From contig JAJZNT010000002.1 in NCBI GenBank assembly GCA_021811685.1, forward strand, positions 1-35,081: DNA of 35,081 bases, written 5' to 3'. Under the pieces are notes generated by a model. The model was not told the DNA's origin, did not search any database, and was given only the letters and a program-made list of their open reading frames with translations. The stretch is from a bacterium. GTDB lineage: Bacteria > Patescibacteriota > Saccharimonadia > Saccharimonadales > UBA4665. This document shows positions 10,772 to 16,970 of this stretch, in pieces; within the stretch, counting starts at the first letter, position 1, and every line of letters starts with the position of its first letter. The position numbers and the translations under genes are program-made.

Positions 10772-13540
10772 ATGGGACAGGCTACCGACCTAGGGGTGGG
10801 GCGGGTATTCACCCCCGCTAAAAGTAAGGCGTATGATCAGCTGGATTGGGAAGAGAGGCATTCTTTGCTCACTAATCCGCAGACCAATGAAGTAGTATTC
10901 GAGCAGGAAAACATTAAATTTCCTACCGGCTGGTCTCAGAATGCCGTTAACATTGTTGCGCAGAAATACTTTAATGGCACTCCGGGCACCAGTGACCGGG
11001 AGTACTCTTTAAAGCAGCTGATTGACAGAGTGGTAGATACCATTGTCAGCCATGGAGTTAGTGAGGGATACTTTGATTCAGATACGACAACCGAGAACTT
11101 CAGAGAAGAACTTAAATATGTATTGGCTACCCAAAGGGCGGCTTTTAATTCACCGGTTTGGTTCAATATAGGGGCACCAGATAGGGCTCAGCAGGCCAGC
11201 GCCTGCTTTATTTTAGGTATTGAAGATACTATGCCGGCCATTCTTAACTGGTACGTTGAAGAGGGAATGATCTTTAAGGGCGGATCAGGTTCCGGTATTA
11301 ACTTAAGCGTGCTTCGCTCAAGTATTGAGCCGTTAAGTAAAAGCGCCGGTACGGCCAGCGGACCCCTAAGCTTTATGCGCGGAGCAGATTCTAGCGCCGG
11401 GGCGATTAAGAGCGGGGGCAAGACCAGGCGGGCAGCTAAAATGGTCATCTTAAATGTTGATCATCCGGATGTTTATGACTTCATTTGGTGTAAGGCGATT
11501 GAAGAGCGTAAAGCCCGTGACTTACAGAATTTAGGTTGGGATATGAGTCTGGACGGCAAGGATGCTTTCTCGGTCCAGTACCAGAACGCTAATCTTTCCG
11601 TCAGAGTAACAGATGATTTTATGCATGCCGTTGAGAATGATGACGACTGGGACCTAAGAGCGGTAACCACCGGTAAGGCTTTGCGCACAGTTAAGGCGCG
11701 CGATCTGTTCCATCAGCTGTCTGAGGCGGCCTGGGAATGCGCAGACCCCGGTATGCAGTTTGATACGGTAATTAACCACTGGCATACAACTCCTAAGGCG
11801 GGCCGCATTAACGGATCTAACCCTTGCAGTGAATATATGCACCTGGACAACTCAGCCTGTAACTTAGCTAGCATCAACCTGCTTAAATTCTTAAGAGATG
11901 ACGGTACCTTCATGATCGACGAATTCAAGCATACGGTAGAGCTGATCTTTACTGCCCAGGAAATTCTGGTCGGTTACAGTACTTATCCCACCGAGCGTAT
12001 TACTAAGAATGCTAAAGCCTATAGGGAGCTAGGGATAGGCTACGCTAATCTGGGAGCTTTGTTGATGGCCCAAGGTCTGCCCTACGACAGTGAAGAGGGA
12101 AGAGCTCAAGCAGCAGCGATAACCTCCTTACTTACTGGGCATGCTTACGCTACGTCGGCTAAAATGGCTGCCAAAGTTGGTCCGTTTGCCGGGTTCAGTA
12201 AAGACCGGGAAGGCATGATCCGTGTACTTAAGCAGCACCGGGCTGAGGTTTCTAAGATCAATGCCAGCTTAGTAAGTGAGGATTTGCTTAGTGCGGCAAC
12301 TAACGCCTGGGACGAAGCAGTTGAACTGGGTCAACGTTACGGCGTTCGTAACTCTCAGGCCAGCGTACTGGCTCCTACCGGTACTATTGGGCTGATGATG
12401 GATTGTGACACGACCGGAATTGAACCTGATCTTGGGCTGGTTAAGGTAAAGAAGCTGGTTGGCGGGGGAACAATGAGCATCGTTAACCAGACAGTGCCCA
12501 GGGCGCTCAGGTCATTAGGCTACCGCAAGGCCCAAGTTGACGATATCGTTAAGTATATAGATTCAGAAAAGACGATTGTCGGGGCACCGCACCTTAAGGA
12601 TGAGCACTTGCCGGTGTTTGCCTGCTCTATGGGGGATAACACTATTCATTATCTTGGCCACGTTAAGATGATGGCAGCAGTTCAGCCGTTTATTTCCGGC
12701 GCAATTTCCAAGACGGTTAACATGCCCGAAGAAGTTAGCGTAGAGGACGTTGAACAACTACACATGGATGCCTGGAAGATGGGGCTTAAGGCAATAGCTA
12801 TTTATAGGGACAACTGTAAGGTCGCTCAGCCGCTGTCGATGGCTAAGCGGGACGGTGAAGAGAATGATAAGTCTTCTGTTAAAGAAGATAACAGAATAGT
12901 AGTTACCGGTCCTGCTAGGCGTAAGCTGCCAAAAGTCAGGACCAGCCGAACCTACAAATTCCAGATTTCAGATCTAGACGGTTACTTTACGGTCGGGGAA
13001 TACGAGGATGGTAAGCCCGGAGAGCTATTCATAAATGTCAGCAAACAGGGCAGTACTCTGCGTGGACTCATGGACTCCTTTGCTATTTCGGTCAGTCTGG
13101 GTCTGCAATACGGGGTTCCGCTTAAGCACTATGTGCGTATTCTGCGCGGTACTTCGTTTGCCCCCGCAGGAGTAACAGACGATAAGCAGATCGGTACGGC
13201 TAGTTCAATTACCGATTACATCTTAAGACGTTTAGCGCTGGACTACCTGAGCTTTGAGGACCGACTTGAGCTGGGACTGGCAGATATCTCAGATATGGAA
13301 ACTTCTGAGCTGCAAACTTCACTGATTACCGAGCAGACTCAGGTAGTTGAGAGTGAACCGGTGGTTGAAGCGGGCGAAACGGTTGATGTAACTCTGGAAG
13401 TAGAGCAAGTTAGCACCAGTGTCGTTCAGGCTGTAACTGACCAGACGGCACCACTGTGCTATAACTGCGGCAATATTACCCAGCGCTCAGGCAGTTGTTA
13501 CGTATGTACTTCCTGTGGTAGCACTACAGGTTGCAGCTAG
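10772..13540 (+). CDS. nrdJ: Adenosylcobalamin-dependent (class II) ribonucleotide reductase
   Basis: FNSPVWFNIGAP, GSGSGINLS, NPCSEYMHLDNSACNLASINL, APTGTIGLMMDCDTTGIEPD; C-terminal Cys-rich CYNCGNITQRSGSCYVCTSCGSTTGCS. Confidence 0.93.
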   Translation: MGQATDLGVGRVFTPAKSKAYDQLDWEERHSLLTNPQTNEVVFEQENIKFPTGWSQNAVNIVAQKYFNGTPGTSDREYSLKQLIDRVVDTIVSHGVSEGYFDSDTTTENFREELKYVLATQRAAFNSPVWFNIGAPDRAQQASACFILGIEDTMPAILNWYVEEGMIFKGGSGSGINLSVLRSSIEPLSKSAGTASGPLSFMRGADSSAGAIKSGGKTRRAAKMVILNVDHPDVYDFIWCKAIEERKARDLQNLGWDMSLDGKDAFSVQYQNANLSVRVTDDFMHAVENDDDWDLRAVTTGKALRTVKARDLFHQLSEAAWECADPGMQFDTVINHWHTTPKAGRINGSNPCSEYMHLDNSACNLASINLLKFLRDDGTFMIDEFKHTVELIFTAQEILVGYSTYPTERITKNAKAYRELGIGYANLGALLMAQGLPYDSEEGRAQAAAITSLLTGHAYATSAKMAAKVGPFAGFSKDREGMIRVLKQHRAEVSKINASLVSEDLLSAATNAWDEAVELGQRYGVRNSQASVLAPTGTIGLMMDCDTTGIEPDLGLVKVKKLVGGGTMSIVNQTVPRALRSLGYRKAQVDDIVKYIDSEKTIVGAPHLKDEHLPVFACSMGDNTIHYLGHVKMMAAVQPFISGAISKTVNMPEEVSVEDVEQLHMDAWKMGLKAIAIYRDNCKVAQPLSMAKRDGEENDKSSVKEDNRIVVTGPARRKLPKVRTSRTYKFQISDLDGYFTVGEYEDGKPGELFINVSKQGSTLRGLMDSFAISVSLGLQYGVPLKHYVRILRGTSFAPAGVTDDKQIGTASSITDYILRRLALDYLSFEDRLELGLADISDMETSELQTSLITEQTQVVESEPVVEAGETVDVTLEVEQVSTSVVQAVTDQTAPLCYNCGNITQRSGSCYVCTSCGSTTGCS

Positions 13541-13561: not shown

Positions 13562-13837
13562 ATGAAGGTGCTAGTGCTTTATAGACCGAAGTCCGAACAC
13601 AGGGTGGCTGTTGAGGAGTTCATTAGGCGATATAAAGAGCAGTTTATAGACTCTCAGCTGGAGATATTAGACATAGATCAACGGGACGGCGCTGCCATGG
13701 CCAGTCTCTATGACATTTTGCAGTACCCCGGATTCTTGGTGCTGCGTGATGATGGAAGTGTTATGCAGAGCTGGCAGGGCAGCGACAATATACCAAGCGT
13801 TGAAGATATTCACTACTACGCTACTCCTCCTATCTGA
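13562..13837 (+). CDS. Thioredoxin-fold-like protein without cysteines
   Basis: MKVLVLYRPKSEHRVAVEEFIRRYKEQF...YDILQYPGFLVLRDDGSVMQSWQGSDNIPSVEDI; cis-Pro-like QYPGFLVL motif but no Cys in 91 aa. Confidence 0.6.
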   Translation: MKVLVLYRPKSEHRVAVEEFIRRYKEQFIDSQLEILDIDQRDGAAMASLYDILQYPGFLVLRDDGSVMQSWQGSDNIPSVEDIHYYATPPI

Positions 13838-13856
13838 TTGATGTTACAATGGATCT

Positions 13857-14059
13857 TGATAAGTCCGCTTGAGCAGCTATCAACTGCAATGGACCGGGAA
13901 GAAATACGCTTTAGTGTAGATTAGAACCCGCCGTCCGGGAGTCGATAATCCCCTTAAAATGAGTGCTTTTAGAGTTAAACCTTTAAAAGAAGTCGGATGG
14001 TACCGTCCCTTGAAATAAGGGATTCCGATGGATTTTAGAGGTTTTTATAATTAAGGGAC
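13857..14059 (+). promoter_or_regulatory. T-box leader of ileS, probably translational
   Basis: T-box core GTCGGA-TGGTACC-GTCCCTT-gaaat-AAGGGAT-TCCGAT (13992-14029), possible AUU specifier at 13920-13922, stem III-like hairpin 13966-13989, and GTCCCTT complementary to AAGGGAC at the ileS SD (14053-14059). Confidence 0.85.
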
Positions 14060-14063
14060 AGAT

Positions 14064-16970
14064 ATGAAGTTTACCCAAAACAGCAGAAGAGCAGCCAAAG
14101 AATACGAAGCTGACCTAGTTAAATACTGGGGAGATAAAAAGATCTTCGAGAAGTCTGTTGAACAGCGTTCGGCGGATAATTCCTATATATTTTACGACGG
14201 ACCGCCGTTTATTACAGGGGTTCCGCATCACGGTACGCTTTTATCCAGCATCGTAAAAGATGCGGTGCCGAGGTATTGGACGATGAAAGGCAAACGGGTT
14301 GAACGAGTTTGGGGATGGGACTGCCACGGTTTGCCGGCTGAAGTGTTTACCGAGAAAAAGCTGGGAATCCACGACAAAAGGGATATTGGTTCTAAAATAA
14401 GCCTTGAGGACTACATTCTAACCTGTAGGGAGAATATGGTGGTCACCGGCAACGCCTGGGAAGACACTATTGCGCGGATCGGCAGGTGGGTAGACTTTAA
14501 GGGTGCCTACCGTACGATGGATAAAGACTATATGGAGTCGGTATGGTGGGCGTTTAAGCAGCTATATGATAAGGGTAAGATTTATGAAGGCGAAAAGGTT
14601 CTACTTTATTGTATCCGTGACGCAACTCCTATATCTAAGGCCGAGGTTGCCCAGGATAACTCATACCAGGAAGACACCGATCCGTCGGTATATGTAAAAC
14701 TGAAACTTAAGGATAGCGACGCCTACTTACTGGCCTGGACGACTACGCCGTGGACTCTGCCAGCCAATACGGCTGCAGCCGTCAACTCCTCTATAGAATA
14801 CTCAGAAATAGAAATGGATGGCGAGCATCTAATAATGGCCAGTGAGCTAATAGACAAGGTCTTAGTCGATGAGAAACATCAGCCCCTGGATCACCGGGTG
14901 ATTAGGACTTTTAAAGGGTCTGAGTTGGTCGGTAAAAGCTATGAGCCGCTGTTTGAAGACCGTGGGGCTAATGCCCATATGATATGGGATGCGGATTACG
15001 TTAGCGTTGATGAAGGCACCGGTGTAGTTCATCTTGCGCCAGCCTACGGAGAAGAAGACTATGAACTAGCACGCGCTCATAATATCCCCGTCGTTGCAAA
15101 TGTTGATGATTACGGTGTCTATAGCAGCGGCGAATGGCAAGGATTAAATGTCTGGGAAGCAAATCGGCTTATTGCTAAAACCCTTCATAAACGGGGCGTA
15201 GTTTGGCGCATTGACTTTATAACCCACTCTTATCCCCATTGTCACCGCTGCGCAACCAAGCTGATTTACCGGGCTCACCCCAGCTGGTTTTTGGATATAG
15301 CCTCACAGCGAGAGCAAATGCTTGAGCTCAATAAAAATATCTATTGGTTTCCTGAGCATATTAAATACGGCAGATTCACTAAAACTGTAGAAAGTGCTCC
15401 TGACTGGAATATTAGCCGGGACCGGTTCTGGGCGACGGCAATGCCGGTATGGAAGGGTGTTGATAAAGACGGTAATGAACATATTAAGGTAGTCGGCAGT
15501 TACGCTGAGCTTAAGGAGCTATCCGGGGTTGAACTGGAAGATTATCATCGGCCATGGGTTGATGACATCAGCTTTAAGATTGACGGAGTTGAGTATAAAC
15601 GTATCGATAAAGTACTTGATTGCTGGTTTGAAAGCGGCAGCATGCCTTTTGCTCAATTTCACTATCCTTTCGAGAATAAAGATAAATTTGAAAAAGATTT
15701 TCCTTCGGACTTTGTTGCTGAATATGTCGGTCAGGTACGGGCCTGGTTTTATTATTTGCACACTATCGCAACTGGCTTGTTTGATACCCATGCCTTTAAT
15801 AATGTTATAGTTAGCGGAACTTTAGCCGGTAACGACGGCAGGAAAATGAGTAAAAGCTACGGTAATTTTACAGATCCGGGTGAGCTTATGGACCGATATA
15901 GCGCCGACGCCCTAAGATTTCTGTTGCTTAGCTCTCCGCTACTGAATGCGGAAGATTATTCGCTTGTCGATAAAGATGTGGCTGATGTTAGCCGTAAGTT
16001 AGCTATGATCTGGAATATATATGACTTCTTTAGTTTATATGCCGATGTTGACGGCTGGGAATGGAAGCCAGGAGATAGCGAGGCGCCTAAACCTGAACAC
16101 ATTCTGGACCGCTGGATATTGTCCAGACTAAACGAGCTTAACCTGATAATTGACTCCAGAATGCAGGCTTATGATATTCCAGGAGCTCTCAAAGAAGTTC
16201 TGCCGTTTGTCGATGACGCGTCAAATTGGTATGTCAGGCGCTCCCGCAAGCGCTTCTGGAAGAGTGAGAACGACCAGGACAAAGATCAGGCTTATGAAAC
16301 ACTGCATTATGTACTGACGCAGCTGTCCATATTGCTGGCGCCATTTATTCCGTTTCTAAGTGAAGAGCTATACCGCAAATTAACCGGAGGCTTAAGCGTT
16401 CATTTGCTCGATTGGCCGGCACCGGGAAAGGTAGAGGAGGATTTAATCAGCCAAATGTCCTACGTGCGTGAAGTTATTAATGAGGGACTTAGGCAGCGGG
16501 CAGGCGAGGGCGTTAAGGTCAGGCAACCGCTTGGATCAGTCAGTGTTTCTTTTGAGAGAGTTAATTTATCTGATGAGCTTAAGTCGATTATCGCCGAAGA
16601 GCTTAACGTCAAAGAAGTTAAAGAACTGAACGTTAGAGGTTCAAGCCAAACGGCAGTTATGGACTTAAGGGTTACTCCTGAACTAAAAAGGGAAGGTATT
16701 GCCCGGGAAATTATCCGAAACGTGCAGAATGCCCGCAAGAAAGCCGGACTAAAGGTTGATGATCGGATTGAGCTTCAGTTAGGCTCGGATAGCAAAGAAA
16801 TATCACAGGTATACACGGATGCGGGATTAGCCGACCTAATTCAACGGGAGACTCTTGCCCTAGAGCTTAATGAGTCCGAGCTTAAAGATGCATACTGGGA
16901 GAATGTGCAAGTAGACGGGTTAGAGCTAGTAATAAAGCTTAAAGTAAAAACAAATAGTGTGCAGAGATAA
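14064..16970 (+). CDS. ileS: Isoleucyl-tRNA synthetase (looks like the eukaryote-like type)
   Basis: FYDGPPFITGVPHHGTLLSSIVKDAVPRYWTMKGKRVERVWGWDCHGLPAE, KMSKSYGNFTDP. Confidence 0.95.
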   Translation: MKFTQNSRRAAKEYEADLVKYWGDKKIFEKSVEQRSADNSYIFYDGPPFITGVPHHGTLLSSIVKDAVPRYWTMKGKRVERVWGWDCHGLPAEVFTEKKLGIHDKRDIGSKISLEDYILTCRENMVVTGNAWEDTIARIGRWVDFKGAYRTMDKDYMESVWWAFKQLYDKGKIYEGEKVLLYCIRDATPISKAEVAQDNSYQEDTDPSVYVKLKLKDSDAYLLAWTTTPWTLPANTAAAVNSSIEYSEIEMDGEHLIMASELIDKVLVDEKHQPLDHRVIRTFKGSELVGKSYEPLFEDRGANAHMIWDADYVSVDEGTGVVHLAPAYGEEDYELARAHNIPVVANVDDYGVYSSGEWQGLNVWEANRLIAKTLHKRGVVWRIDFITHSYPHCHRCATKLIYRAHPSWFLDIASQREQMLELNKNIYWFPEHIKYGRFTKTVESAPDWNISRDRFWATAMPVWKGVDKDGNEHIKVVGSYAELKELSGVELEDYHRPWVDDISFKIDGVEYKRIDKVLDCWFESGSMPFAQFHYPFENKDKFEKDFPSDFVAEYVGQVRAWFYYLHTIATGLFDTHAFNNVIVSGTLAGNDGRKMSKSYGNFTDPGELMDRYSADALRFLLLSSPLLNAEDYSLVDKDVADVSRKLAMIWNIYDFFSLYADVDGWEWKPGDSEAPKPEHILDRWILSRLNELNLIIDSRMQAYDIPGALKEVLPFVDDASNWYVRRSRKRFWKSENDQDKDQAYETLHYVLTQLSILLAPFIPFLSEELYRKLTGGLSVHLLDWPAPGKVEEDLISQMSYVREVINEGLRQRAGEGVKVRQPLGSVSVSFERVNLSDELKSIIAEELNVKEVKELNVRGSSQTAVMDLRVTPELKREGIAREIIRNVQNARKKAGLKVDDRIELQLGSDSKEISQVYTDAGLADLIQRETLALELNESELKDAYWENVQVDGLELVIKLKVKTNSVQR

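Follow-up and report, generated by a model that had tools for sequence, protein, structure and literature searches.

An ultrashort-Stem-I T-box with a proposed nested terminator upstream of ileS in Saccharibacteria, and its relatives across Patescibacteria

The ileS locus and its host

The window, which is the whole stretch of 35,081 nucleotides analysed here, carries on its forward strand an open reading frame of 968 aa that encodes isoleucyl-tRNA synthetase (ileS; TIGR00392, E 2.2e-241). Judged by this gene, the host of the window is a member of Patescibacteria (Saccharibacteria) and not of Actinobacteria, because its nearest ileS relatives, with 75-80% protein identity, are found in Candidatus Saccharibacteria genomes. 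A 91-aa open reading frame (13562-13837) without a Pfam match lies between the gene of a B12-dependent ribonucleotide reductase (10772-13540) and the ileS leader. A consensus scan finds no promoter-like site for the leader, and the candidate extended -10 element listed in Table 1 is not picked out by it either.

Table 1. Features of the ileS leader and gene in the window; those of the terminator and of the promoter are proposed
Feature	Position	Strand	Composition	Basis
Possible extended -10 promoter element	13845-13850	+	TG-T-TACAAT; would put the leader start near 13857	Sequence, inferred
Ultrashort Stem I	13873-13887	+	GCAG-CUAUCAA-CUGC; AUC 13879-13881 in the apical loop, then A13882	Relatives, compensatory changes
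Stem II with S-turn	13895-13930	+	Lower helix 13895-13898/13927-13930; internal loop AAGAAA/GAUUAGAA; upper helix 13905-13909/13914-13918	
Stem IIA/B pseudoknot	13932-13952	+	IIA 13932-13935/13941-13944 (one mismatch); IIB GGGA 13937-13940/UCCC 13949-13952	
Stem III and purine flanks	13961-13991	+	GAGUG (RRRxG) 13961-13965; helix 13966-13974/13981-13989; AA 13990-13991	
Proposed terminator base stem, 5' strand	13977-13988	+	12 bp with 14033-14044; shares bases with the loop and 3' strand of Stem III	Minimum free energy (MFE) structure
Antiterminator	13992-14029	+	A1 13992-13997/14024-14029; bulge UGGUACC 13998-14004; A2 14005-14011/14017-14023 with terminal G-U	Leaders, RF00230 alignment
Proposed terminator base stem, 3' strand	14033-14044	+	UUUUAGAGGUUU	Pairing kept in leaders
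U-tract of proposed intrinsic terminator	14042-14046	+	UUUUUAUAAUU	T-run adjoining base stem
ileS Shine-Dalgarno-like element	14053-14058	+	AAGGGA; 3' of proposed terminator	Sequence
ileS, gene under proposed control	14064-16970	+		TIGR00392 match; start codon kept in relatives

Structure and covariation of the sensing part

The first-pass annotation had placed a T-box upstream of ileS, and this assignment is borne out by the anatomy of the leader, by covariation and by a sub-threshold match to the RF00230 family of Rfam. Its A1 helix (GTCGGA/TCCGAT, with one terminal G-U pair), its TGGTACC bulge and its A2 helix (GTCCCTT/AAGGGAT) agree with the sequence in bases and coordinates, and AAGGGAC at 14053-14059 and the ATG at 14064 were correctly placed. 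The specifier hairpin, Stem II, the pseudoknot, the Stem III motif and the terminator strand were missing from it.

A search of the window against Rfam at the gathering score gives no match, and a search of the whole genome with RF00230 returns nothing. The Rfam check that had been proposed for the leader is answered in part: an E-value search of the short stretch gives an RF00230 match at 13880-14030 with 24.9 bits (E 9e-4), which is far below the 93-bit gathering score of this family. The ileS leader of Tsukamurella, taken as actinobacterial control, likewise reaches only 31.9 bits with RF00230. The 93-bit score is a curation cut-off that shuts out the ultrashort architecture, and not a defining structural feature. 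Other sub-threshold Rfam matches in the region (snoR14 and GmglnB1) were dismissed as chance. The fold of the leader is more stable than those of shuffled sequences (z -3.47).

Eighty saccharibacterial ileS loci were taken, most of which have the motif [AG]AUGGNACC 60-120 nt before the start codon, or in some cases 160-320 nt before it, and 46 leaders were aligned for the anatomy of the whole element. Across these 46 leaders, 96% of the cells of 34 pairs are paired, two-sided changes occur at 31 of the 34, and covariation scores 0.655, as compared with 0.245 for shuffled and no more than 0.153 for slid controls. The helices covary while the specifier, the bulge, the S-turn and the purine motif are near-invariant.

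Stem I, which is not a long stem with an IDTM, is a hairpin of 4 bp whose loop of 7 nt reads YUAUCNN in almost every relative. All four of its pairs show compensatory changes (GCAG/CUGC, GCGG/CCGC, GUGG/CCAC, AUGG/CCAU, GAGG/CCUC and others). The lower helix of Stem II is paired in 100% of the 46 leaders, with compensatory changes at 4/4 pairs, and the S-turn GAAGAA/UAGA is near-invariant among them. Compensatory changes are also seen in the IIA pairs of these leaders, and the IIB loop pairing is stronger with the leader's own partner (-3.92 kcal/mol) than with swapped ones (-1.72 kcal/mol), none of 5000 permutations being as good. The main helix of Stem III is 94.6% paired, with compensatory changes at all seven pairs counted, and the near-invariant flanks AAG and AA give the RRRxG-Stem III-AA motif. 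The A1 and A2 helices covary across leaders, and the 7-nt bulge UGGNACC between them is near-invariant. Judged by sequence and covariation, the element is a genuine tRNA-sensing T-box of ultrashort-Stem-I architecture upstream of ileS.

The AUC triplet of the Stem I loop is an isoleucine codon followed by a purine (A), and in a few relatives the specifier is followed by C. The AUU at 13920-13922, in the internal loop of Stem II, was considered as a specifier and rejected, as relatives show the S-turn at this place (AGU, ACU or AUU before AGAA). Three same-genus genomes, and four of the same order, supplied genes of tRNA-Ile(GAU). The anticodon loop of this tRNA, CUGAUAA, contains UGAUA, the complement of UAUCA in the Stem I loop. 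The 3' end of the tRNA is ACCA, which is complementary to the UGGU of the bulge and agrees with the earlier statement that UGGU fits the discriminator A of tRNA-Ile. In the window's own genome, which is 63% complete, tRNA-Ile is not among the 29 tRNA matches.

A proposed terminator nested around the antiterminator

The segment between A1 and the T-run pairs with the 3' strand of Stem III, and this pairing is specific to each leader, with -15.3 kcal/mol for own and -7.4 kcal/mol for swapped partners (n=56 leaders). The resulting base stem has a median length of 13 bp over 52 distinct leaders and reaches 8 bp or more in 50 of them; most positions show 4-6 standard pair types. Pairs were counted by per-sequence duplexes, and the MAFFT alignment misaligns the 3' strand. 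In the leaders analysed, a run of at least five T (or TTTATTT) directly adjoins the base stem. For most leaders the MFE fold is a long hairpin, capped by the undisturbed A1/A2 hairpin and ending in the T-run.

In the window the base stem is A-U rich, with two G-C pairs and a duplex energy of -11.2 kcal/mol, and constrained folds give -33.7 kcal/mol for the terminator, -25.8 kcal/mol for the state with the Shine-Dalgarno (SD) sequence sequestered and -25.7 kcal/mol for the Stem III state. A generic terminator scan, which is limited to loops of 8 nt, does not flag this site, where the terminator "loop" is itself a hairpin, and it gives no clear excess of terminators in the window.

The 3' strand of Stem III can thus pair alternatively with the 5' strand of Stem III, with which it covaries, or with the 3' strand of the terminator. 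Since both folds use this strand and each of them covaries, the Stem III fold and the terminator fold are mutually exclusive, and sequence and covariation point to an intrinsic terminator with a U-tract that excludes the tRNA-bound fold. This terminator is not built from the 3' strands of A1 and A2, which stay paired. In leaders L026 and L068, and in the distant L170 and L171, an enclosing helix occurs without a Stem III hairpin, the only partner of the strand that precedes AA being the terminator 3' strand. Competition with Stem III is therefore not universal, and in such leaders the terminator may compete with the tRNA itself.

About ten leaders have their T-box at a greater distance upstream of ileS, in most cases with a short open reading frame in between, and they too keep the hairpin with its U-tract. 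Sequestration of the ileS SD is implausible in these leaders because of this distance and of the intervening frame. Extra sequence between T-box and ileS, mostly with a short open reading frame, is seen in L042, L050, L056, L057, L066, L067, L075, L077 and L079, and the frame of L056 matches no Pfam family.

Proposed mechanism and alternative readings

The ultrashort-Stem-I T-box very probably controls ileS by transcription attenuation, through a terminator that would enclose the intact antiterminator. The anticodon of uncharged tRNA-Ile(GAU) would pair with the AUC of the Stem I apical loop, with support from the S-turn of Stem II and from the IIA/B pseudoknot, and the ACCA end of the tRNA would pair with UGGU in the bulge. 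Stem III with its flanking purines would then lock onto the helix formed by A1/A2 and the tRNA, which would hold the 3' strand of Stem III and let RNA polymerase read through into ileS. Binding of tRNA by the discriminator requires Stem III (PMC7583486). With charged tRNA-Ile the bulge could not take up the 3' end, and the segment transcribed after A1 would open Stem III by strand displacement and pair with its 3' strand. The long terminator hairpin formed in this way would keep A1/A2 at its tip and end in the U-tract just before the SD, where transcription would stop. Actual termination, the response to charging and the direction of this response are what we infer from the sequences and their pairings.

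An unlikely variant is dual control, in which the nested terminator would be the main switch and occlusion of the SD by A2 a second, strain-specific layer in the window genome. The window has both the terminator duplex and a strong A2/SD pairing, which could act in sequence on read-through transcripts. However, the A2/SD pairing needs A2 to be broken, which the terminator fold does not need, the strong pairing is absent in relatives, and the GUCC of A2 and the GGA of the SD are partly complementary by default.

Less probable again is the purely translational T-box of the first-pass annotation, in which GUCCCUU would leave A2 when uncharged tRNA is absent and sequester AAGGGAC, and tRNA binding would free the SD. 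The complementarity on which this proposal was built is real in the window, where 7 bp of perfect pairing give -13.7 kcal/mol, the strongest value of 46 leaders, and the architecture matches that of actinobacterial translational ileS T-boxes (PMC1262725, PMC7583486). The comparison of ileS leaders shows, however, no conservation of this alternative pairing over 46 leaders. In a swap test with the 46 leaders whose T-box directly precedes ileS, the A2/SD duplex averages -4.76 kcal/mol with the leader's own SD and -4.69 kcal/mol with SDs swapped between relatives, and 38% of permutations are as good (p=0.38); SD sequestration is on this ground rejected as the conserved mechanism. In the same-genus relatives checked, A2/SD pairing reaches only -1.9 to -8.4 kcal/mol, against -11.6 to -17.9 kcal/mol for the terminator stems. 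The leaders with a short open reading frame cannot use an exchange between A2 and SD, and such an exchange leaves the covarying U-tract hairpin unexplained.

A reading in which the 3' hairpin serves as a constitutive 3' end or as an RNase site, and the T-box-like fold is a relic with no response to tRNA, is hardly credible: some ileS loci in the collection do lack the T-box motif, but the near-invariant specifier, bulge, S-turn and purine motif and the covarying helices are as expected of a tRNA binder, and distant copies bear codons that match their own downstream genes.

Transcription attenuation is favoured over SD sequestration because it fits the swap tests, the hairpin with its U-tract, the folds and the T-boxes that lie well upstream. 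Against it stands the view that transcriptional T-boxes need, for speed, a long Stem I with an elbow-binding IDTM (PMC7583486), which is missing here.

Comparison with known T-boxes

Two known types of T-box share features with the window leader. The actinobacterial ultrashort-Stem-I ileS T-box, known from Nocardia farcinica and Mycobacterium tuberculosis and represented here by Tsukamurella tyrosinosolvens (L206, 909-1099), has the AUC in its apical loop, the Stem II S-turn (GGAAGAA/AGUAGAACC), the IIA/B pseudoknot, the RRRxG-Stem III-AA motif, the UGGUACC bulge and ileS downstream, as in the window. The elements listed for actinobacterial ileS T-boxes in PMC7583486 are those found in the saccharibacterial leaders. 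The actinobacterial controls are plasmid-borne copies of ileS, and the model built from saccharibacterial leaders scores 39.7 bits (E 1.6e-8) with the Tsukamurella leader and 42.4 bits with that of Microbacterium.

The actinobacterial ileS T-box is translational and sequesters the SD (PMC1262725). It has no U-tract, whereas the window leader, which belongs to another phylum, has a nested terminator and a U-tract. The Tsukamurella leader contains no run of four or more T, and its A1/A2 side pairs with the SD region (-17.9 kcal/mol), in line with a translational output, so that the sensing part is common to both groups and the output differs. The parallel with Actinobacteria drawn in the first-pass annotation therefore holds for the architecture but neither for the host, which is saccharibacterial, nor, most likely, for the output.

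With the canonical transcriptional T-box of Firmicutes (RF00230; glyQS, tyrS), the window leader shares the UGGN bulge between A1 and A2, the purine motif of Stem III, a downstream synthetase gene and, as proposed here, the choice between read-through and an intrinsic terminator. The Firmicutes T-box has a long Stem I and an elbow-binding IDTM, whereas the window leader has neither, carries its specifier in an apical loop and scores below the gathering score of the family. In the canonical T-box it is the 3' strands of A1 and A2 that form the terminator (PMC7583486), whereas the terminator of the window leader would use the 3' strand of Stem III and leave A1/A2 intact.

Distribution across Patescibacteria

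The T-box is found in 19 of 21 near genomes, usually once per genome. A survey of the phylum with the covariance model from saccharibacterial leaders (E at most 1e-3) finds it in 142 of 380 Patescibacteria genomes, which are 33/37 of the same class and 109/343 elsewhere. Forty distant matches were read in detail, and the genes downstream of the distant T-boxes are mostly ileS, valS, aspS, thrS, tyrS and lysS. Patescibacteria T-boxes (for example among L166-L205) are also seen before argG, and there are up to four in one genome, mostly with matching codons in the apical loop.

An automatic hairpin picker gives AUC in 9 of 13 Stem I loops before ileS, where it never picks GUC; it gives GUC in 10 of 13 before valS, GAC (2) or AAC (3) before aspS, ACC in one of two before thrS, and UAC before tyrS. 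Most of the ileS and valS cases that it misses also fit by eye. The specifier codon thus tracks the downstream gene in the distant matches, which counts for the tRNA-sensing reading. In these leaders both nested and canonical terminators occur, and many leaders could be assigned to neither type.

Some single leaders depart from the common pattern. In the aspS leaders L179, L185 and L188 the codon of the Stem I loop is AAC (Asn), and in others it is GAC (Asp). AAC before aspS suggests sensing of tRNA-Asn where the AspRS is non-discriminating and also charges tRNA-Asn, a reading that fits because several of the aspS products match the non-discriminating model. The tyrS leader of L203 (2999-3154, minus strand) has a T-box with a UAC specifier and no U-tract, and is possibly translational. 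In L201 a T-box-like leader (301-461) with an apical AUC precedes the gene of an HD-domain protein (473-976; PF13328/PF01966), which is not a synthetase and is possibly a nucleotide or (p)ppGpp hydrolase.

Implications for Patescibacteria

In the TBDB, the genome search for translational T-boxes was confined to Actinobacteria. A literature search made without most subscription journals and without Sherwood et al. 2015 finds no paper on T-boxes in Saccharibacteria, Patescibacteria or the Candidate Phyla Radiation (CPR). The ultrashort architecture explains why Rfam annotation misses the T-boxes of the CPR. To our knowledge, the role of switching helix has not been assigned to Stem III before.

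According to a review, T-boxes that control transcription generally need a long Stem I gripping the tRNA elbow, and most translational T-boxes have an intermediate or ultrashort Stem I (PMC7583486). The saccharibacterial leaders appear to break this rule of a long Stem I for transcriptional T-boxes. Cultured Saccharibacteria with genetic tools exist (PMC10633639), which makes the proposed switch testable.

The ultrashort architecture is common to Actinobacteria and Saccharibacteria, which raises the question of transfer versus ancestry. Actinobacteria are the hosts of most cultured Saccharibacteria.

The occurrence across the phylum is a larger point than the ileS locus alone. Ultrashort-Stem-I T-boxes are probably a phylum-wide means of tRNA sensing in Patescibacteria for several synthetase genes, one that would act on transcription without an elbow-binding domain, often through a terminator that is built around the antiterminator and has Stem III, not A1/A2, as its competitor. 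This would extend T-boxes to the CPR, a group of host-dependent bacteria with poorly known gene regulation, and would give many synthetase genes of Patescibacteria one common mechanism of gene control.
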